Assembly: GCA_001655195.1 (NCBI GenBank)
Contig: LPNY01000158.1
Location: 77,615 to 141,614, forward strand
Source: Arcobacter sp. EP1
Lineage (GTDB): Bacteria; Campylobacterota; Campylobacteria; Campylobacterales; Arcobacteraceae
DNA length: 64,000 nt
Direction of reading: 5' to 3'
Below, piece by piece: positions 18,852-31,846 of the stretch. Below the pieces are notes generated by a model. The model ran no database searches. It saw only the letters and a program-made list of their open reading frames with translations, and had not been told where the DNA came from. The number at the start of each line of letters is the position of its first letter. The stretch's first letter is position 1. Both the position numbers and the translations under genes were made by a program.

Positions 18852-20018
18852 CTACTGTTTAATGGGGTTGAAGTTAATACTAAATGTTGACCCCTCTTTG
18901 CGTTTTGATTTTAGGTGCATGGATAAACCATACTCATGAATAATACGTGTCACAATATCTAGTCCTATACCAAAACCACCTTCATTGTTATCTTTTCCTC
19001 TTTTGTATCGTTTAAAAATATTTTTCTGCTCTTCTTCTGAGATACCAATACCATGGTCTTGTACACTAAAACATCCGTCATTAATAGATACAATAATTTT
19101 TGTATTTCGATTACTATATTTCACTGCATTTGAAAGCAGATTATTAATAATCTTTTGAGTTTTTGTTTTATCCATCAAAATAGTTAATGGCTCTAAAGAT
19201 GTCTCAATCTGAATACTTTTTGCATTAGCAATATCAAAAAAGAAATCCACACTCTCTTGCACTAACACACACAATTCAAAAGATTCATCCATGGATTCAT
19301 CTATATCATTAAATGCTGAGTAATGAATGTCATTATAGACTTGTGAAATCTGTTTCGTACTTCCTAGAATATATTTCATCATCTTTTCAGGGTTTCGTCC
19401 CTGTTTCAAGGTGGAAACAGAAGTTAATAAAACTGAAACAGGAGTATTTAGTTCATGAGCACTATCTTTAATAAACTGATCCATGTGTTCAATCTTTTCC
19501 CTAACCGGTTTTAACAGTAATTTTGCCAATAAATAAGCGATAAAAGTGACAAAAATACCACTAAGAATTAAAATACCTATGATTAAATACTTTAAGCTTT
19601 GTTTATCTTCAATTCCTTGGCAGGTTTCAATAACAATATATTTAATAGGAACCTTTTCGTCTTTAATGGTTGCAATATGATATGAATAGTGTTCTGTGTC
19701 AAACTCAGTTTGTGAGAAATCACTAATGCTCTCTTCTAAATTTGAATAAATTAAATTTTTATCCCTATCATAAAGGGCATATTGTAAACCCTCTGTTTTT
19801 AGTGGTGTAGGCACAAACTTTTGGTGGTTCATATAAGCATTTAAAATATTCTCTTTAATTTCATAAGCACTGTTACTCATCTCCATTGAACAGTGATCTT
19901 CTAACATTTTTTTTTCATTAATATAATAGAAATATAACATCGCTCCAATAAGAGCAACTGCTGATCCTACATAAATAGAGAGAAAACTAAAAAGTGCTTT
20001 TTTTTCATTACTGTACAA
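18852..20018 (-). CDS. Two-component sensor histidine kinase
   Basis: A 388-residue classical kinase: membrane helices at about 12-31 and 145-168 flank a 110-residue periplasmic sensor domain; H-box IKDSAHELNTPVSVLL, N box NNLLSNAVKYS, G1 VQDHGIGI, G2 GGFGIGLDIV. The sensor carries two cysteines, C43 and C133, near the two membrane borders, which could respond to thiol-reactive ligands; that is inference. It starts with TTG at 20018 behind AGGAT and overlaps its response regulator. It is the last gene of the run that starts with the fused ArsS-ArsM gene. Confidence 0.88.
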   Translation of the reverse strand: MYSNEKKALFSFLSIYVGSAVALIGAMLYFYYINEKKMLEDHCSMEMSNSAYEIKENILNAYMNHQKFVPTPLKTEGLQYALYDRDKNLIYSNLEESISDFSQTEFDTEHYSYHIATIKDEKVPIKYIVIETCQGIEDKQSLKYLIIGILILSGIFVTFIAYLLAKLLLKPVREKIEHMDQFIKDSAHELNTPVSVLLTSVSTLKQGRNPEKMMKYILGSTKQISQVYNDIHYSAFNDIDESMDESFELCVLVQESVDFFFDIANAKSIQIETSLEPLTILMDKTKTQKIINNLLSNAVKYSNRNTKIIVSINDGCFSVQDHGIGISEEEQKNIFKRYKRGKDNNEGGFGIGLDIVTRIIHEYGLSMHLKSKRKEGSTFSINFNPIKQ

Positions 20019-20670
20019 ATTTATATCCTATTCCACGTATGGTTATAATGCGCTCCTTACCTAAAAGCTCACGCAAATTTTTTATGTAAACACGTATGGT
20101 TGCATCTGTCGGCATTTCATCATATTCCCAAATATTTTGTAATAATTCATCAGAAGAGATAACTCTATTTTTATGGGTCACAAAATACTTTAAGATATCT
20201 CGCTCTTTTTGAGCAATAGAAATAGAACGACCCTCTTTTTTAACTTCACAGCTAGTTGGAATAAAAGTAATAGAGTCATCAATTGCAATTTCTTCTTCTT
20301 GGTTTATAGAAAAATGCCGACACAACTTTAAAATGCGTTGATCCAACTCCTCAAGGTCAAAAGGTTTTTTAATATAATCATCCACACCACTTTCAAAAGA
20401 CATTTTCAGATGTCGTGTATCTTGATATGCCGTTAAAACAATAGCAGGTGTTTGATCTTTATATTCATCTCGTATAGTTTTTAAAACCTCTATACCACTC
20501 ATAATTGGCGTATTTATATCTAGTAAGGCTAAATCATATTTGTTATCAATTAAATACTCTAAGGCATCTTGGCCGTTTGTAGCTAAGGTAACATCATAAC
20601 CTTCGTGCGTTAAGTGATCTTCAATAATATCACTTAGTGCTAAATCATCTTCTAATAATAAAATTTTCAT
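20008..20670 (-). CDS. OmpR-family response regulator
   Basis: A 220-residue regulator: receiver with EDD, phosphorylated Asp in LALLDINTP and Lys in YIKKP; C-terminal winged helix with QKERDILKYFVTHKNRVIS and ATIRVYIKNLRELLG and the final IRGIGYKF. AAGGAG precedes the ATG. It lies 46 bases after the TVP38 gene on the same strand and so may be co-transcribed with the arsenosugar genes and control them. The binding site is not evident. Confidence 0.92.
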   Translation of the reverse strand: MKILLLEDDLALSDIIEDHLTHEGYDVTLATNGQDALEYLIDNKYDLALLDINTPIMSGIEVLKTIRDEYKDQTPAIVLTAYQDTRHLKMSFESGVDDYIKKPFDLEELDQRILKLCRHFSINQEEEIAIDDSITFIPTSCEVKKEGRSISIAQKERDILKYFVTHKNRVISSDELLQNIWEYDEMPTDATIRVYIKNLRELLGKERIITIRGIGYKFVQ

Positions 20671-20716: not shown

Positions 20717-21406
20717 TTATTTAGTTGATTCTTTTTGCTTATACGCTTTGTATTTTTTATAAGCAACAGGTATCAACATAAGTAATGCCAAAAGAACAAA
20801 AGCAAACAACATCTCTTTTGTAAAAATATCCTCAATAGCATTGATTGTTGCTAGTTGGCTGCCTGCATAGGTATAAACTAAAGAGCCTGGAATAATCCCC
20901 AATGATGTTGTAATAAAAAATGTTCGTAAGTCAACGTGAGTTACCCCACAAAAAAAGTTAACTAAAAAGAATGGAAAGATTGGTAAAAATCGCAATGAAA
21001 AAAGATACTGAAACTTGTTCTCTTCTAACTCTTTATTAAACTTTTCTAACTTTGAAGCATATTTTTCTTGTACTTTATTTCCTACAATGTAACGTGCAAA
21101 TAAAAATGCTAAAACCGCACCTAAGGTTGCTCCAATATTAACAAACACTGCACCAAATAATGTACCAAATAAAAAACCACCTGATAGGGTAAGTACTGTT
21201 GCAATAGGGATTAAAAATGCAACAGAAACAATATAAATAAGTATAAATCCTATCACCGTAACAAGATAATTATTTTCTACAAAATCAGCTAATATACTCT
21301 GCTGTGATTTTAAATTTTCAAAAGTAAAATAACTATCTATCTCAAAAAACTTTGCAATAATAATCAAAAGAACAAAGAGTAAAAGTATTATAATTTTTTT
21401 ATTCAT
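20717..21406 (-). CDS. TVP38/TMEM64 family (VTT domain) membrane protein
   Basis: A 229-residue membrane protein with five or six helices. The VTT/SNARE-associated domain is seen in LIPIATVLTLSGGFLFGTLFG, FARYIVG and the paired LRFLPIFPFFLVNFFCGV and GIIPGSLVYTYAGSQLA. Members are often coupled to a flavin oxidoreductase of the neighbouring type; they scramble or move lipids, or transport small molecules, with the exact role not fixed. It overlaps the oxidoreductase gene by four bases (ATGA). In this locus it could serve export or membrane placement of an arsenolipid or arsenosugar. Confidence 0.88.
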   Translation of the reverse strand: MNKKIIILLLFVLLIIIAKFFEIDSYFTFENLKSQQSILADFVENNYLVTVIGFILIYIVSVAFLIPIATVLTLSGGFLFGTLFGAVFVNIGATLGAVLAFLFARYIVGNKVQEKYASKLEKFNKELEENKFQYLFSLRFLPIFPFFLVNFFCGVTHVDLRTFFITTSLGIIPGSLVYTYAGSQLATINAIEDIFTKEMLFAFVLLALLMLIPVAYKKYKAYKQKESTK

Positions 21407-22830
21407 GACTTTTTTCCTTTAAATAAAGAAGCAAGAGATTTTAATGCTTTTAAAATAGGATTATTTAACAGTCTACTAATATAATATTTTTTTGAAGTCT
21501 GCTTAATAATATCTGCAAAGGTAGGATAGATATAGACCATTTTAGACAGCTTATCAAAAGAGAGTCCAAAGGTTTTAGCCAATTGTAATTGATGAATCAA
21601 CTCCCCCGCTCGCTCCCCTAAAATAGAAGCACCAAGAATTTTTCCACTCTTTGATACAACCACTTTTATTACCCCTGTTCGTTTAACATCTGTATAACCT
21701 CTGTCACTGTTTTTATACTCAAAAGAGATTAACTCAACATCACTGAATTTTTCTTTAGCCTCATCGTAAGTTAACCCAATATGAGCATACTCTGGGTCGC
21801 TGTAAACACACCAACCAATATGGTCATAATTGATTGTTTTTTTAATAGGCAAACCAATATTACTTCCTGCTACAATTGCTTCTTGTTCTGCAATATGGGT
21901 GAACTTATGAGGTGTTGAAACATCTCCTATAGCATAGATATTAGGATTAGACGTTTGTAAATAGGTATTAACTTTTATACCTTTCTCATCAAAATTCACA
22001 TTAGCATGATGTAGATTCAAGTTAGTATTAGGTTTTCTCCCAGTGGCAAAAAGTATCTCTTGGGCAGATAACGATTGCTCTTGGTTATCTTTTTGTATAA
22101 CAAGTTCAACCTCATCATTTTGTGAAATACTTTTTAATTGTAAGTTTTGAACAAAATCAATACCCTCTTGTTTTAAAGAGTCTAATAAAATGTCACTTAT
22201 CTCTTTATCCCCATTTTTTAAAATACCACTACTTCTACTCACTACTGTGACCTTTGAGCCTAAACGGTTAAATGCCGTTGCCATTTCAATAGCAATGACT
22301 CCATTTCCTACAATCAACAAAGATTTTGGAATTTTAGGCAAAGAAAAAATTGTTTCATTGGTTAAATAAGAGACCGTTTCAATTCCTAAAAGGTTTGGAA
22401 TCAAAGGAGAACTCCCTGTTGCAATCAAAAATTTCTTTGCTTCATAAAGATTTTCTTCAACACTTATTTGAGAAGCATTCACAAATTTTGCAAAACCTTC
22501 AATAATAGCAATACCTTCTTTTTCAAAGATATCAGGAGTTTCATGGGAATAGATTTCATCAACAATAGATTTTACGTGAGAGAGCACATTTGAGGTGTCA
22601 ATATCTAAAGCATTAACGGAAACACCATATTTTTCTAAATGTTGCGCTTCATACACTGCACTAGCAGCTTTTAATAAAGTTTTAGAAGGAACACATCCCG
22701 TATGGGTACAATCTCCACCTAGTTTATTAGCTTCTACTATAGCAACACTTTTTCCAAAGGCTTTCACTAATTTAGAAGCAACCAATCCAGCTGGACCACC
22801 TCCAATAATTATTACATCAAACTTTTCCAT
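21403..22830 (-). CDS. FAD-dependent disulfide-type oxidoreductase (mercuric-reductase-like)
   Basis: A 475-residue flavoprotein with the FAD motif IIIGGGPAGLVASK, a redox disulfide GGDCTHTGCVPSK (C41, C46), a NAD(P) motif GNGVIAIEMA, ATGRKPNT and AIGDV. The C-terminal His-Glu pair of glutathione reductase and lipoamide dehydrogenase is replaced (IYPTFADI), and the MerA C-terminal cysteine pair is missing, so neither activity should be assumed. This subtype is typically next to a TVP38 gene, as here. It overlaps the preceding glycosyltransferase gene by 14 bases. It may reduce a thiol, quinone or arsenical in the arsenosugar pathway; inference. Confidence 0.87.
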   Translation of the reverse strand: MEKFDVIIIGGGPAGLVASKLVKAFGKSVAIVEANKLGGDCTHTGCVPSKTLLKAASAVYEAQHLEKYGVSVNALDIDTSNVLSHVKSIVDEIYSHETPDIFEKEGIAIIEGFAKFVNASQISVEENLYEAKKFLIATGSSPLIPNLLGIETVSYLTNETIFSLPKIPKSLLIVGNGVIAIEMATAFNRLGSKVTVVSRSSGILKNGDKEISDILLDSLKQEGIDFVQNLQLKSISQNDEVELVIQKDNQEQSLSAQEILFATGRKPNTNLNLHHANVNFDEKGIKVNTYLQTSNPNIYAIGDVSTPHKFTHIAEQEAIVAGSNIGLPIKKTINYDHIGWCVYSDPEYAHIGLTYDEAKEKFSDVELISFEYKNSDRGYTDVKRTGVIKVVVSKSGKILGASILGERAGELIHQLQLAKTFGLSFDKLSKMVYIYPTFADIIKQTSKKYYISRLLNNPILKALKSLASLFKGKKS

Positions 22831-23464
22831 AATCTTTTGCCTTTAAAAACTGTATTGTATGTGAATTTTTCCATTGATTTTTATACGATACGTAAAATTG
22901 ATCTAAATCCTCTTTGGTATCAATATCATTCATATACATTAACAAATATAACGCTTTTTTGTTTACTGTTTGTAAAGTCTGTTCCAAGACAACTTCACTG
23001 CTCCAAGTTATGTTTTCAAAAACTGTTTCATTAAACCCTTTTTTTGTAAAACCTATGAGATAATAACCCCCATCAAGACTTGGACCTAAAACCATTTCAT
23101 GAGTACTCAATGATTCAAAACTCTTATTCAATAAATCAGTACTAAGATGAGGCGTATCACTTCCAATAAGTACAATTTTTTCATACCCTTTTGCAAACTC
23201 TTCTTTAAAAGCATTTGACATTTTTGCTCCTAAATCATCTCCTTTTTGAAGAAAAGTAGCATCAAAAGAAAAAGCATTCTTATTAGGATGGACATATAAT
23301 GCACAATCAAACCCTTCAACTGTTTGCATTAAATCTTTGATAAAGTTTTCATATAAAGCCAATGCAAACTCATCACTGGTTTGTTTAGCTAATCGTGTTT
23401 TTACAAAACCTAATTTGGGCTCTTTAACAAACATAATAAGACGGTTTTTAATTTTAGGTATCAC
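22817..23464 (-). CDS. TIGR04282-type arsenosugar biosynthesis glycosyltransferase (DUF2064)
   Basis: A 215-residue nucleotide-sugar-transferase-fold protein with the family pattern: FVKEPKLGFVKTRLAKQ at the start, IGSDTPHLS and LGPSLDGGYYLIGF. The family is found with ArsM and ArsS in arsenosugar clusters. It starts with GTG at 23464, directly after the TAG of the arsS-arsM fusion (TAGGTG), so it is certainly co-transcribed and coupled. The precise reaction is not established for the family. Confidence 0.88.
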   Translation of the reverse strand: MIPKIKNRLIMFVKEPKLGFVKTRLAKQTSDEFALALYENFIKDLMQTVEGFDCALYVHPNKNAFSFDATFLQKGDDLGAKMSNAFKEEFAKGYEKIVLIGSDTPHLSTDLLNKSFESLSTHEMVLGPSLDGGYYLIGFTKKGFNETVFENITWSSEVVLEQTLQTVNKKALYLLMYMNDIDTKEDLDQFYVSYKNQWKNSHTIQFLKAKDYGKV

Positions 23465-25468
23465 CTAACAGCATCCACTACTTGTTATATTTGTTTCACT
23501 TTCAATTTTTTGTCGCTCTTGGGTTGCTAACGTTGCACACCCTAAGAACTCTCCAAAGTGTTGTTTTGTGTCGCCTATTACCTCAAAATAGTTTTTATAA
23601 CGAGTTTCACTTAACATTTTAGCAGTATTTTTACACACATGTTCAGCACGGTTCAATTCAAAGAGATGATTACTATCAAGCTCAAACTCTCGTTCACACT
23701 CCTCAATACCTCCCTTGTAAATAGCAAATTGACCATAATCCTCACACTTTTCATCTAAATCATCAAGTTTCCATAAACGGTATGTTAGGGAATAAAACTG
23801 GGTATTACCTACTAAATTTTTTACTTCATCATCAGTAATATCAATAGGCTTTGAGCTAACCAGACGAGGTTCTTTAAAACCTGCTTCTTTTGCAAAAGTT
23901 AAAAAGTCATTCACGTACAATGCCCCACCTAAACACTCACCATGTAAGATTTTATCTTGACGCACTGTTGAACTAAGACGTCTAGATGCGTATACATCAC
24001 TAAAATAAAACTCGCCCCCATTTTTAAGCAATGTAAAAATCTTTTTTAAAATTGCACGTTTATCTTCAAGTAAATTAATCACACAATTTGACGTAACAAT
24101 ATCTAATGAGTCAGGAAGAAAGTGTTGATCAATATTTTCAATAGTATCATGGATGAAATTCGTATTGATTTTATTATGTTCGAAACGTTTTTGTTGACTT
24201 TTTTGGTGTTTAATTGCCACATCAATTTGATTTTTGGTCATATCAATACCGTTAACTTTTCCATTTTCTCCCACAAGTTTTGACAGAATATAAACATCAC
24301 GCCCACTGCCACATCCTAAATCTAAAACTATTTGGTTCTCTAAAACATGGGGTATTGGTGAACCACATCCATAGTATTTATCTTGTATCTCTTCTGCAAC
24401 ATAAGGCAACACATCTCTAACGCGTTTTGGAATCATATCCAAGGTACAACATGCTGTCGTTTTTAAATCCTCACTACTGTTTAAGACTTCGCCATAATAC
24501 TCTTTTGCATTCTCTTTTGCATCAAAACTTTCAACAGTTTCAACAACTTCTCCATGGCACGAACTACCACTATTAACGGTACAACCATAACAGTGTTCAT
24601 CAAAACTGATTTCAGGGGCAAAACTATCAAAATCAATCTCCCAAAAAGGAGTTGTTTCATAACCAATAATTGGCTTATCTAATGCCATGTTAAAATCACA
24701 ATCAAAAACTTTTCCCTCATAATTGATACTCAATACTCGTTTACACATCACTTTATCTAGAGTTTTCACATTGTATTGGCTCTTTAATTTATCCATATAT
24801 TCATCATAAAGCCCATGATTTTTCAAATCAGTTTTAAACCGTTTAATTGGCATATTAACAATCGTTGCAAGAGAGTTAAACTCAATATTATATTTCTCTT
24901 TTAAAATCTTTTTATATTCCAGTTGCAATTCATTTTGAGGCTTGGGTAAATAAGTACCCACTGGGTTATAGACTAAATCCAGTTGTAAGTCACCTTTGGC
25001 AAATCCTAAAGCATTTAGTTTTTGCAATACAGTAATAGATTCATCAAAGACACCAAAACCTCTTTGTTTTGTTGTTAAATCTTCAAAAACACTAGGAAGT
25101 GATGCAATTACTTTGACATTAAAAAGTTTATATAGTTCTAAAAAATGTGCATATTTGGGATCTTCTAAAACAGTGAGAGAGGTTCGTACTACGATATTTC
25201 GTCCCGCATCAGAAAGTTTAGTTAAAAAAGTGGTAAAACTATCATTCATCTCTGGGGTTCCACCAGTAAACTCAATAGTTTTAATATCTAAGGTTAAAAG
25301 TTTATCTAAAATTTTATTTGCGGTTAAAAGAGTCATGTTATTTTGCCCCTTTGGGCTTGCTGCCACATGACAGTGAGTACAGGTTTGATTACACAAATCT
25401 CCTAGGTTTATTTGAATCAAATCAAACTTATCTTTTAATATTTTTTTTACTTTCCAAAAATCACCCAT
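23465..25468 (-). CDS. Fused ArsS (radical SAM) - ArsM (arsenite methyltransferase)
   Basis: A 667-residue two-domain enzyme. Residues 1-310 match ArsS: radical SAM cluster C26-x3-C30-x2-C33, IEFTGGTPE, and Cys-rich end with C242, C257, C293, C296, C304 (HCYGCTVNSGSSCHG; some relatives carry selenocysteine near this motif). Residues 335-667 match ArsM: ACCTLD (C340, C341), YYGCGSPIP, SAM motif LDLGCGSGR (382-390), C462 in SNCVIN and C512 in HGECLGGAL, covering the known arsenic-binding cysteines, and a CC terminus. ArsM methylates arsenite; ArsS joins dimethylarsinous acid to a SAM-derived adenosyl unit. The two are usually separate genes. AAGGAA precedes the ATG. First gene of the operon. 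Confidence 0.92.
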   Translation of the reverse strand: MGDFWKVKKILKDKFDLIQINLGDLCNQTCTHCHVAASPKGQNNMTLLTANKILDKLLTLDIKTIEFTGGTPEMNDSFTTFLTKLSDAGRNIVVRTSLTVLEDPKYAHFLELYKLFNVKVIASLPSVFEDLTTKQRGFGVFDESITVLQKLNALGFAKGDLQLDLVYNPVGTYLPKPQNELQLEYKKILKEKYNIEFNSLATIVNMPIKRFKTDLKNHGLYDEYMDKLKSQYNVKTLDKVMCKRVLSINYEGKVFDCDFNMALDKPIIGYETTPFWEIDFDSFAPEISFDEHCYGCTVNSGSSCHGEVVETVESFDAKENAKEYYGEVLNSSEDLKTTACCTLDMIPKRVRDVLPYVAEEIQDKYYGCGSPIPHVLENQIVLDLGCGSGRDVYILSKLVGENGKVNGIDMTKNQIDVAIKHQKSQQKRFEHNKINTNFIHDTIENIDQHFLPDSLDIVTSNCVINLLEDKRAILKKIFTLLKNGGEFYFSDVYASRRLSSTVRQDKILHGECLGGALYVNDFLTFAKEAGFKEPRLVSSKPIDITDDEVKNLVGNTQFYSLTYRLWKLDDLDEKCEDYGQFAIYKGGIEECEREFELDSNHLFELNRAEHVCKNTAKMLSETRYKNYFEVIGDTKQHFGEFLGCATLATQERQKIESETNITSSGCC

Positions 25469-25533
25469 AAGTTTCCTTAAAAAATTTATAAATAATACAC
25501 TATAATTGTTTACTCTGTGTAAAGGTGTTAAAT

Positions 25534-26217
25534 ATGCAAGTCTCTATTATCATTCCTGTTTACCATGAAAACAATATCAATAAAATTATTGATTCAATTA
25601 TATCCAATGAAACATCTATTGATTATGAAATTATTGTTGTGGATATTGAAGATCAATCAACAATTAAACTCATTGAGAATGAAGAGGTAATTACAACCAC
25701 AGCGCCACAAGGAAGAGCTTTTCAAATGAACAAGGGCTTTAAACTCGCAGGTGGTGACTATTTACTTTTTTTACATGCAGATACACTCTTACCTAACAAT
25801 GCCTTGGAATGTATTGTTAAAACCTTAGATGCTCCTAGTCCATATAGTGCAGGTGCTTTTGATATTAGTATTGATACTGATGATAAAATTTTAACAAAAA
25901 TATCAAAAATGGCATCATGGCGATCAAAGTTTTTCAAACTTCCATATGGAGACCAAGCTATTTTTGTTAAAAAAGAGGTTTTTGAAAATATTGGAGGATA
26001 CAGAGAAATTTCACTCATGGAAGATGTGAACTTTATGCAAAAACTCAAACGTAAAAAACAAAAAATTCAAATTCTTGAAGAACAAATTATTACAAGTGCT
26101 AGACGTTGGGAAAAGAATGGAGTTATTAAAACAACATTAACGAATATCGCTTTACAGCTACTCTATTTTGCAGGTGTTCACCCCAATACTCTCGCCAAAT
26201 ACTATTATAAAAAATAA
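25534..26217 (+). CDS. TIGR04283-type arsenosugar biosynthesis glycosyltransferase (GT2)
   Basis: A 227-residue family-2 glycosyltransferase: SIIIPVYHENN at the start, PQGRAFQMNKGFKLAGGDY and LLFLHADTLLP (the DxD-like metal site), and GGYREISLMEDVNFM. The GRAxQMNxG and LHADT pattern is the signature of the TIGR04283 group, found with ArsM/ArsS. It diverges from the fused arsS-arsM gene across a short promoter region. I start at ATG 25534 (AAAGG upstream) rather than the GTG at 25525. A TATAAT lies at 25501-25506. Confidence 0.88.
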   Translation: MQVSIIIPVYHENNINKIIDSIISNETSIDYEIIVVDIEDQSTIKLIENEEVITTTAPQGRAFQMNKGFKLAGGDYLLFLHADTLLPNNALECIVKTLDAPSPYSAGAFDISIDTDDKILTKISKMASWRSKFFKLPYGDQAIFVKKEVFENIGGYREISLMEDVNFMQKLKRKKQKIQILEEQIITSARRWEKNGVIKTTLTNIALQLLYFAGVHPNTLAKYYYKK

Positions 26218-26948: not shown

Positions 26949-27557
26949 CTAGTTTAAAAGTTCTTGTACTATAGTATAGAGTGCTTTTTCTGCTTGTTTG
27001 AGACTTTTACCAAAAACAACTACCCCTTCAAAGTGCCCTTTCATAACAAAGGCATTATTGAGCATTGGGTTAATATCTTTGTAAATATCACGTACATCTT
27101 CAACCATTTCTGGCGTACCATAAGGGGTATCATTGGTACTTAAATAATCATTTTCTAACATAAAACGCCACAACTTTTCATTGTGCACATGAATAACTGC
27201 ATTAATTCTTGCATCTAACTCATAAATACATGCGTGAGTTATGGCTTCACTACTTGGCTTTGAAACACCAATAGCTGTTGTAGTAAAAGTCTTAAAGTCA
27301 ACATTTTTCACTAAAGAGTAATATTTTGGGGAGAGTTTAGGTAATTCACCTGTTTGAGTTGCCGTAATGACAAAAGCATTTTTCTTTGTGTAACGAAGAG
27401 ATATATTCCCATATCCTATTCCGTTATCATATGCACCTATTAAGCCAAGAGAAAAAAGACGCTCTCTTGTTTTTTCTATTTTTTGACACTCTTTTTTTGC
27501 AACTTCATCTGTTTGAGTAAATTGCAAAGAGTATTTAACAACACCATCATCAATCAT
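26949..27557 (-). CDS. Class II aldolase/adducin family protein, candidate methylthioribulose-phosphate aldolase
   Basis: A 202-residue zinc aldolase. The motifs are YGNISLRY (phosphate loop), SSEAITH (catalytic Glu), VIHVHNEKL (two Zn His) and MKGHFEGVV (third Zn His). Members split sugar phosphates into DHAP or, in MtnB, dehydrate methylthioribulose 1-phosphate. Here the gene follows mtnK and mtnA on the same strand with the HD-GYP gene between, so the substrate is plausibly 5-methylthioribulose 1-phosphate. Whether it acts as aldolase (DHAP shunt) or dehydratase cannot be told by eye. It begins five bases after the phosphodiesterase stop. Confidence 0.82.
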   Translation of the reverse strand: MIDDGVVKYSLQFTQTDEVAKKECQKIEKTRERLFSLGLIGAYDNGIGYGNISLRYTKKNAFVITATQTGELPKLSPKYYSLVKNVDFKTFTTTAIGVSKPSSEAITHACIYELDARINAVIHVHNEKLWRFMLENDYLSTNDTPYGTPEMVEDVRDIYKDINPMLNNAFVMKGHFEGVVVFGKSLKQAEKALYTIVQELLN

Positions 27558-29411: not shown

Positions 29412-30488
29412 TTATACATTTAGTTTAAACATATTATTAATTGCTTCTTCATTCGTAGCACAAACACCTTTTTCCGTTATTAATCCCGTGACTAATCGAG
29501 CAGGTGTGATATCAAAACCATAATTAACTGCCTTTGATGTTTTTGGCGTAATTAACAACTCTTCAACAACACCCTCTTTATTTAACCCACGAATATATTT
29601 CACCTCATCTTCACTTCGCATCTCAATAGGAATATCTTTGACTCCATCTCTAATATCAAAATCCAATGTTCCTTCTGGAATTGCCACATAAAAAGGAATA
29701 TTGTTATCGTTTGCAGCAAGAGCTTTTAAATAGGTTCCTATTTTATTTGCTACATCTCCATTGGCACTAACTCTATCCGCACCAACAATACAAACATCCA
29801 CCATTCCTTGTTGCATCAAATATCCACCGGTGTTATCAGGAATAATCGTATGCTCAACTCCATCTTGTGTTAACTCCCATGCAGTTAAATTTGCCCCTTG
29901 GTTTCGAGGTCGTGTTTCATCAACCCATACATGAACATCAATACCTCTTCGTTTTAATTCATAAATAGGTGCTAACGCTGAACCATCATCAACAATTGCT
30001 AACCACCCTGCATTACAATGGGTTAATACATTAATAGAAGTTTTTCCTTTTTCTTGCATAATCTTTTCAAAAATATCAGCACCATAAGAAGCAATTTTTG
30101 AACTTCGTTCACTATCTTCATCACAAATTTGAATAGCTGTTTTTCGTGCAACTTCTAACAAATCATCTTGGGCATTTAAAAGTGCTTCTAACATAATATC
30201 TACTGCCCACATTAGATTCACTGCCGTTGGTCGTGATTCTCGAATTGCTTTTGATTTTGTAACAACTGCTTTAATATCTGCCTCTTCTTTAACGGCTAAA
30301 TAAACCCCTAACGCCCCGATATTTCCGATAACTCCAGCCCCTCGTACAATCATATCTTTAATTGCTACAATAGCATCATCAGCTGTTTTTAAAACAATTG
30401 TCTCTTCTATAAATGGAAGTTTTGTTTGATCAATAACTTCCACATAACCTTCCTCATTTACCCAAAACGCTCTATACTCTCCATTCAT
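29412..30488 (-). CDS. mtnA: S-methyl-5-thioribose-1-phosphate isomerase
   Basis: About 358 residues with the eIF2B-like fold. Family motifs: VRGAGVIGNIGALG, TVNLMWAVD, LTHCNAGWLA (catalytic Cys), VWVDETRPRNQGA, IVGADRVSANGDVANKIGTY (catalytic Asp). It converts methylthioribose 1-phosphate to methylthioribulose 1-phosphate. The ATG at 30488 overlaps the mtnK stop by four bases with AAGGA upstream; a GTG two codons earlier is an alternative. It works directly after MtnK. Confidence 0.94.
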   Translation of the reverse strand: MNGEYRAFWVNEEGYVEVIDQTKLPFIEETIVLKTADDAIVAIKDMIVRGAGVIGNIGALGVYLAVKEEADIKAVVTKSKAIRESRPTAVNLMWAVDIMLEALLNAQDDLLEVARKTAIQICDEDSERSSKIASYGADIFEKIMQEKGKTSINVLTHCNAGWLAIVDDGSALAPIYELKRRGIDVHVWVDETRPRNQGANLTAWELTQDGVEHTIIPDNTGGYLMQQGMVDVCIVGADRVSANGDVANKIGTYLKALAANDNNIPFYVAIPEGTLDFDIRDGVKDIPIEMRSEDEVKYIRGLNKEGVVEELLITPKTSKAVNYGFDITPARLVTGLITEKGVCATNEEAINNMFKLNV

Positions 30489-31711
30489 TGACACTCTTCC
30501 TTAATAATTGTAATTACTTCTTCTATATTTTGTATTTTTTTATTATTTTTCACAAATCGTTTTGCAATCTCTAATGTTATAGTAATCGCTTTATCTTTAA
30601 TCGCTTTATCTTCAATTTCACGAATATCGGCAACTCCTGCAATACCAAACATGCGTCGTGCCATTTTACACCCTGCAAAACCAACACTATCTCTTAGTAT
30701 TTGTACCATAAACTCTGATTTATACTCTTGAAGGCTTACTTCACTAATAAACCCATCAGTGATTAAGGATGACTCTTCTTGTGCATTCCAAAGTGCTAAA
30801 AACTTTGTTTCAAATTCAACTAAAATTGTCTCAATAGTATTGATAATCCACTCAGGGTATTCTGCTTTTGACCCCAGTGCAATGTGAGAAACATATGACA
30901 TGGTTAAATTTCCTAACAGTGCTCCAATATCAAAACCAAAAGGTCCTACAAAAGCAAACTCAGGGTCAATTACAAAAGTCTCTTTTTCATTTAACATAAT
31001 TGAACCTGTATGTAAATCACCATGAATCAAAGCATCATTTTGTGTCATAAATTTATACTTTAATGCTAAAACCTCTTTTTTAAACTGCATATCGCTAAAA
31101 AGTTCTTGTGCAATCTCATGGCCATGAGAATATTCATCATTTGTTTCATGTTCCATAAAAGCAAAAGTAAATACAAAGTCTTCCGTTAATTTACATAACT
31201 CTGTATTTGAATTAAAACTATCAATCAAGGCTCTTTTTTGTGTCGAATCTAAATGTAATGAAGATGTTTTAAATAGATTTTGAGCTAAATAAGTTGAGAT
31301 ATGCTCTGCAAATTTTGGATAGACTGTTTGCTCAATCATTCCTTGTCGCATAATAATGTGTTCACCTAAAAACTGCATTATAACGGCGCTCATCTGCTCG
31401 TTAGTATCATAGAGTTTTGGTACATACTCACTGGTAATTTGTGCAAAGCTACTAAGCGCTCTTATCTCATAAGTCATTCGCTCTTTACTTAAAGGATACT
31501 CCTCTCCAACACATCTAAGATATGGCACTGCTTGCTTTAAAATCAGTGCTTTTTTAGGATCACTTTGTGATTTTATAATAAAAACATAGTTTAAATTTCC
31601 ATCCCCTATTTCAGCCACTTCTAGTGAATCATTTGAAAAGTACGCTTTAATTGAATCAATACTATACAAGTATTCAACAATATTATCTTTATCTAAAATT
31701 TTATATTCCAT
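30485..31711 (-). CDS. mtnK: S-methyl-5-thioribose kinase
   Basis: About 408 residues of the APH-like kinase fold: ALILKQAVPYLRCVGEEYPLSKERM (family-specific), catalytic HGDLHTGSIM and IDPEFAFVGPFGFDIGALLGNL (metal-binding Asp). MtnK phosphorylates 5-methylthioribose, the product of MTA/SAH nucleosidase action on methylthioadenosine. I start at the ATG at 31711, which has AAAGGT at correct spacing, not at the ATG nine codons upstream. First gene of mtnK-mtnA-HD-GYP-aldolase. Confidence 0.92.
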   Translation of the reverse strand: MEYKILDKDNIVEYLYSIDSIKAYFSNDSLEVAEIGDGNLNYVFIIKSQSDPKKALILKQAVPYLRCVGEEYPLSKERMTYEIRALSSFAQITSEYVPKLYDTNEQMSAVIMQFLGEHIIMRQGMIEQTVYPKFAEHISTYLAQNLFKTSSLHLDSTQKRALIDSFNSNTELCKLTEDFVFTFAFMEHETNDEYSHGHEIAQELFSDMQFKKEVLALKYKFMTQNDALIHGDLHTGSIMLNEKETFVIDPEFAFVGPFGFDIGALLGNLTMSYVSHIALGSKAEYPEWIINTIETILVEFETKFLALWNAQEESSLITDGFISEVSLQEYKSEFMVQILRDSVGFAGCKMARRMFGIAGVADIREIEDKAIKDKAITITLEIAKRFVKNNKKIQNIEEVITIIKEECQ

Positions 31712-31846
31712 ACATTGACCTTTTTCAAAGTTTTTCATTGAGATAACTTCATATTATTTTTTAATGAAGTAATAAAACTAGATTGTAACAAAATTTAAAT
31801 TTAAACCTTTAATCGATATAGTTATCCAATATACAGGAGTGTTTTT

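Follow-up and report, generated by a model that had tools for sequence, protein, structure and literature searches.

The fused gene

The 64,000-nucleotide stretch of Arcobacter sp. EP1 DNA analysed here (the window) contains one gene that, as judged from its sequence, encodes two known consecutive enzymes, ArsS and ArsM, in a single chain, and this new arrangement is widespread but sparse. The gene (23465..25468, minus strand) has an ATG start, 667 codons and no internal stop codon in the window, and its single frame recurs in 24 further genomes. The original prediction described this ORF, without giving its strand, as one 667 amino acid polypeptide made of ArsS and ArsM; profile searches and structure-sequence searches of each half bear this out, as each half matches its own family. 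The protein is most probably a bifunctional arsenosugar biosynthesis enzyme that would convert arsenite to DMAs(III) and then adenosylate it. The two proteins are usually encoded by separate genes, as had been stated, and no description of an ArsS-ArsM fusion was found in the literature searched, from which subscription journals are mostly missing; the prediction likewise knew of no study. Every sequence and fold feature tested places the two halves in their respective families, the ArsM half lying outside the NF038099 subfamily.

The ArsS half

Residues 1–310 (24539..25468, minus strand) comprise a radical SAM core and a DUF3641/Cys-rich C-terminal part. Residues 12–307 match positions 4–302 of the 303-position ArsS model TIGR04167 with 343 bits (E 1e-102), above its curated cut-off of 300 bits; PF04055 is matched at residues 20–157 and PF12345 at residues 174–306 (148 bits). 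The CxxxCxxC motif predicted at residues 26–33 is present (C26, C30 and C33; 25370..25393, minus strand), and its cysteines, predicted ligands of the SAM-binding [4Fe-4S] cluster, are invariant in all 22 aligned fused proteins. The Cys-rich end that had also been predicted coincides with the PF12345 match; there C242, C257, C293, C296 and C304 are again invariant in 22 of 22, the last three within the segment CYGCTVNSGSSC (24557..24592, minus strand), and these five are probable ligands of an auxiliary Fe-S cluster. The AlphaFold model of this half resembles the radical SAM maturases SkfB (Z 19.6) and EpeE (Z 17.8), and no solved structure matches it by sequence at E < 0.01. It shares with the ArsS family (TIGR04167; Synechocystis SsArsS) the above-cut-off score, the CxxxCxxC motif, DUF3641 and the Cys-rich end, but ArsS is normally a separate protein of about 300–350 amino acids and here it is joined to ArsM.

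The ArsM half

Residues 318–667 (23468..24517, minus strand) are 45% identical to the CmArsM and CrArsM crystal structures; residues 318–644 match solved CrArsM and CmArsM at E ~1e-90 (8e-91), and the AlphaFold model of this half superimposes on them with VIA Z 37–38 and an rmsd of 1.3–2.1 Å over ~300 residues (VIA Z 33 for AS3MT). This match, together with the TIGR04167 score of the other half, excludes a chance resemblance. All four catalytic cysteines are present: by alignment C340 (with the neighbouring C341; 24446..24451), C368 (24365..24367), C462 (24083..24085) and C512 (23933..23935, all minus strand) correspond to CmArsM C44, C72, C174 and C224, and all are invariant in the 22 aligned fused proteins. 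C462 and C512, the predicted As(III) ligands, are where the original prediction placed them, and the YYGCGSPIP signature that it named is at residues 366–374; a failure of this half to align with the ArsM cysteines, which it had named as counting against itself, is not seen, and it had overlooked C340 and C368, which complete the set of four. Relative to ArsM/AS3MT proteins (CmArsM 4FR0, CrArsM 5EVJ and human AS3MT 8XT7) the half has the same fold, the four catalytic cysteines and ~45% identity; it differs in being joined behind ArsS and in passing no NCBIfam ArsM cut-off. Its score against NF038099 (AsSugarArsM) is 91 bits, below the 400-bit cut-off, and its ArsM subfamily therefore differs from the arsenosugar-linked one of NCBI; it also falls under the cut-off of every other NCBIfam ArsM model listed. 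Since ArsS is the only NCBIfam cut-off passed, automatic annotation would probably name ArsS alone and hide the methyltransferase.

The chain ends in a vicinal pair, C666-C667 (23468..23473, minus strand), on a tail of low pLDDT. CC or CGC ends nearly all ArsM proteins compared, fused or separate. Such a tail might possibly serve as a carrier arm; it is not special to the fusion, because separate ArsM proteins carry it as commonly.

Gene neighbourhood

The fused gene is flanked on both sides by genes of the kind that define an arsenosugar biosynthesis cluster when they adjoin ArsS, both scoring over their cut-offs. A TIGR04282 glycosyltransferase/CofC-like gene lies directly downstream (22817..23464, minus strand; 176 bits, cut-off 134), and a TIGR04283 glycosyltransferase gene (25525..26217, plus strand; 227 bits, cut-off 182) diverges from it 56 bp away. 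The same operon includes a pyridine nucleotide-disulfide oxidoreductase gene (MerA/dihydrolipoyl dehydrogenase-like; 21403..22830, minus strand), which is adjacent in most Campylobacterota fused loci, and a gene for a VTT (DedA/TVP38-type) membrane protein (PF09335; 20717..21406, minus strand), which adjoins the fusion in many fused loci. Beyond these are genes for an OmpR-type response regulator and a histidine kinase (18852..20670, minus strand), possible regulators of the cluster, which are 57–77% conserved beside it in four other Campylobacterota (G370, G376, G391 and G392); the closest matches of the window's histidine kinase are plasmid genes from Sulfurospirillum, Arcobacter and Sulfurovum. 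The neighbour set is retained in other Campylobacterota with a slightly changed order. Among the fetched flanks of the 25 fused loci, at least one of TIGR04282 and TIGR04283 is near the fusion in 18 and both in 11; neither is found in 7, where some flanks are short.

We note several other genes near these clusters. At G370 a DUF3047 gene that is absent from the window (L072:10689-11366) stands between the fusion and the TIGR04282 gene. In the window, genes for a class II aldolase (26949-27557), MtnA (29412-30494) and MtnK (30485-31738) lie 1–6 kb from the cluster, a set that resembles a 5-deoxyribose/methylthioribose salvage shunt. No Rfam family was found in the window.

Distribution and history of the fusion

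The original prediction had proposed listing fused cases by genome as a check; reading of the DNA gave an ArsS-then-ArsM frame without a stop codon in 25 genomes, the window's included, which represent five phyla. They are nine Campylobacterota (the window, G195, G302, G320, G350, G370, G376, G391 and G392), eleven members of the Nitrospirota group (G410, whose frame includes a gap of N, G698, G699, G711, G768, G787, G799, G803, G811, G817 and G889), three Spirochaetota (G409, G543 and G545), one member of the Calditrichota (G408, truncated by the contig end) and one genome of a fifth phylum (G1035); G303 has a fragment of a fused gene. Within the family to which the window belongs the fusion is rare, being carried by 6 of 104 genomes. 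None was found in 398 sampled Pseudomonadota genomes at E 1e-75 or among the best plasmid matches, and with the fusion as query the genome of the window itself yielded no further ArsS or ArsM. The recurrence of the joined protein across these phyla argues for a real, inherited two-step enzyme.

In IQ-TREE trees of each half all fused proteins fall in one clade (support 100/100), within which are nested separate ArsS proteins (G771 and G672) and separate ArsM proteins (L040, L041, L096, L097 and L131, of which L097 lies at the edge of a contig); FastTree with more rows gave the same clade and nesting. These trees are most simply read as a single fusion event, after which the gene was transferred and the halves came apart several times. 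The Leptospiraceae locus L040 is syntenic with the fused L038 yet has only ArsM, and because several nested lineages have separated the halves or lost one, the link between them is evidently not essential. The spirochaetes G409 and G545 are placed differently in the ArsS-half and ArsM-half trees, which may reflect exchanged halves or weak signal. In L038 (7938-10013) the CxxxCxxC motif is encoded ahead of the first ATG, GTG or TTG, which casts doubt on its start codon or on the MAG sequence.

Frames of ~600–726 amino acids in G694 and G728 (Nitrospirota group) and in the Pseudomonadota G1235, G1367, G1263 and G1448 were rejected as fusions, as reading of the DNA gave separate, close-set genes. 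The genes of G728 are arranged arsM-TAG-ATG-arsS, and in Pseudomonadota separate genes in the order arsS-arsM are likewise only a few bases from each other. With the two genes this close in either order, loss of one stop codon would suffice to fuse them.

Other joined architectures

A 699 amino acid frame of the Nitrospirota group genome G851 (L155:6732-8828, plus strand), the only genome of this kind so far, has ArsM first and ArsS second, and is flanked by TIGR04283-like, VTT and TIGR04282-like genes. Both its halves fall outside the main fused clade, so it is an independent fusion. The f10 proteins (L020:238-3222, L021-L030 and L053-L055), of about 995 amino acids, combine a radical SAM part, an ArsM-like methyltransferase and DUF5714; they were rejected as ArsS-ArsM fusions, the architecture being different and the radical SAM part not being ArsS. 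A 653 amino acid frame (L078:10108-12066, minus strand, the same as L015) has a C-terminal ArsS behind ~350 residues that give a sub-threshold Metallophos match. Two further joined genes link a TIGR04282-type domain to an APH-family kinase domain (L074:14656-16182, minus strand) and TIGR04282 to TIGR04283 (L080:5310-6632, minus strand); they hint that arsenoribose may be phosphorylated and nucleotide-activated before transfer.

Fusions of arsenic methyltransferases to other partners have been described. ArsR-M of Brevundimonas sp. M20 (PMC10190100) resembles the present protein in joining an arsenic methyltransferase to an arsenic-related domain, but its partner is a repressor and here the partner is the next pathway enzyme. 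The Naegleria gruberi ArsM-SelD, mentioned in PMC5552862, is also a two-domain ArsM fusion; it is eukaryotic and its partner is a selenophosphate synthetase. Arsinothricin biosynthesis (PMC8552651) likewise pairs a methyltransferase, ArsM, with a radical SAM enzyme, ArsL, and each of them forms C-As bonds, but the genes are separate, and the group transferred by the radical SAM enzyme of arsinothricin synthesis is 3-amino-3-carboxypropyl rather than adenosyl (PMC12159101).

Putative function

The original prediction held that ArsM and ArsS act in series in arsenosugar formation. This is supported by work on SsArsM and SsArsS of Synechocystis as consecutive steps of the arsenosugar pathway (cited in PMC8552651) and by the adenosylation of arsenic by ArsS (cited in PMC12159101). 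From the families and the conserved cysteines we infer both catalytic activities of the fusion and its product. The C-terminal ArsM domain would capture As(III) on C462 and C512, with C368 and C340 as relay thiols, and with SAM would convert it through MMAs(III) to DMAs(III). In the predicted radical SAM reaction of the N-terminal half, ArsS, which would hold a SAM-binding Fe-S cluster and probably an auxiliary one, the arsenic of DMAs(III) would receive a 5'-deoxyadenosyl group. The product would be of the 5'-deoxy-5'-dimethylarsinoyl-adenosine type, and the TIGR04282 and TIGR04283 products would go on to process the sugar. As one chain the halves would be present at a 1:1 ratio, and the trivalent intermediate, which is toxic, would stay close to the enzyme that uses it. 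The family scores, the catalytic cysteines and their conservation, the wide occurrence of the fusion, the single clade, the low dN/dS values, the lack of further ArsS or ArsM matches in the window's genome and the arsenosugar gene neighbours support this reading, as do the independent reverse-order fusion in a similar cluster and the fused-only structure model (below). Counting against it are the nested fissions, the lower pTM with mixed rows, the fourfold linker variation, the seven loci without either TIGR gene in the flank and the 91-bit NF038099 score.

That a sequencing or assembly error joined two genes is conceivable in principle, separate arsS and arsM often being in frame with each other and only a few bases distant, but the chance of it is negligible. 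The same open frame in 24 other genomes, forming one clade, and dN/dS values of 0.03–0.17 in both halves (in pairs that permit the computation) exclude the frameshift that the original prediction had named as its possible refutation. The checked frames are also free of N, except for five N in L145, which together with the recurrence and dN/dS rules out a chimera as well, and the junction (residues 291–342) has no in-frame start codon ahead of C340. The dN/dS values show purifying selection on both halves, and this bears too on the idea that the protein only detoxifies arsenite by methylation, its ArsS half being vestigial or serving another substrate. The clade relatives L040, L096 and L131, which retain ArsM alone, would fit such a role; every invariant cysteine is nonetheless kept in the ArsS half, whose dN/dS is ~0.10–0.17, and arsenosugar glycosyltransferase genes adjoin the fusion, and we consider pure detoxification quite improbable.

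Within the bifunctional reading, the way DMAs(III) passes from one half to the other may be viewed in two ways that leave the chemistry the same. The chances are about even that the halves work as independent enzymes between which DMAs(III) diffuses freely, the joining merely ensuring co-expression. The linker (residues 305–323; 24500..24556, minus strand), with low pLDDT at 306–312 or 299–315, ranges from 14 to 58 residues, a roughly fourfold spread, in 22 fused proteins; one AlphaFold run with 56 fused and separate rows gave a pTM of only 0.59 (pLDDT 91.8); several secondary fissions have occurred; and elsewhere tight operons of separate arsS and arsM manage without fusion. On the other side, all five phyla have kept the fusion, a second one evolved with the halves reversed, and one run with 22 fused-only rows gave a pTM of 0.79 (pLDDT 82.5). 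A rise in pTM with a fall in pLDDT suggests that paired rows inform the packing of the halves, hinting at a defined arrangement, in two alignments that differ in more than pairing. The original prediction proposed direct transfer between active sites, which is speculative: an arsenosugar synthase of fixed assembly and interface, with the vicinal-Cys tail as carrier arm and DMAs(III) never released, is a tentative and rather less likely model. Besides the higher pTM, it could draw on the CC/CGC tail, which nearly all ArsM proteins have and which the ArsM-ArsS fusion retains in its linker, and perhaps on the Cys-rich linkers of G376 (L071:8125-10209, two cysteines) and G370 (L072:8563-10701, seven) as the route. 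Separate ArsM proteins have the tail just as often, however, and 19 of the 22 linkers have no cysteine after C304, the remaining one being that of G545 with a single cysteine. We note that the L072 linker has repeated SSCC...SC motifs, and that the pathway's first enzyme, ArsM, is the C-terminal domain, with ArsS N-terminal. If channelling were true, the reverse-order fusion, whose linker keeps the Cys pair, would mean that such a mechanism had evolved twice.

In marine food webs organic arsenic occurs mainly as arsenosugars, and DMAs(III), the intermediate that ArsM supplies to ArsS, exceeds arsenite in toxicity. As a natural fusion that arose twice independently, the protein would offer a ready-made test of whether DMAs(III) is handed over or released, and a single-gene tool with which to make an adenosylated arsenical. 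As a marker, the fusion would widen the potential for arsenosugar synthesis to Campylobacterota, Nitrospirota, Spirochaetota and Calditrichota.
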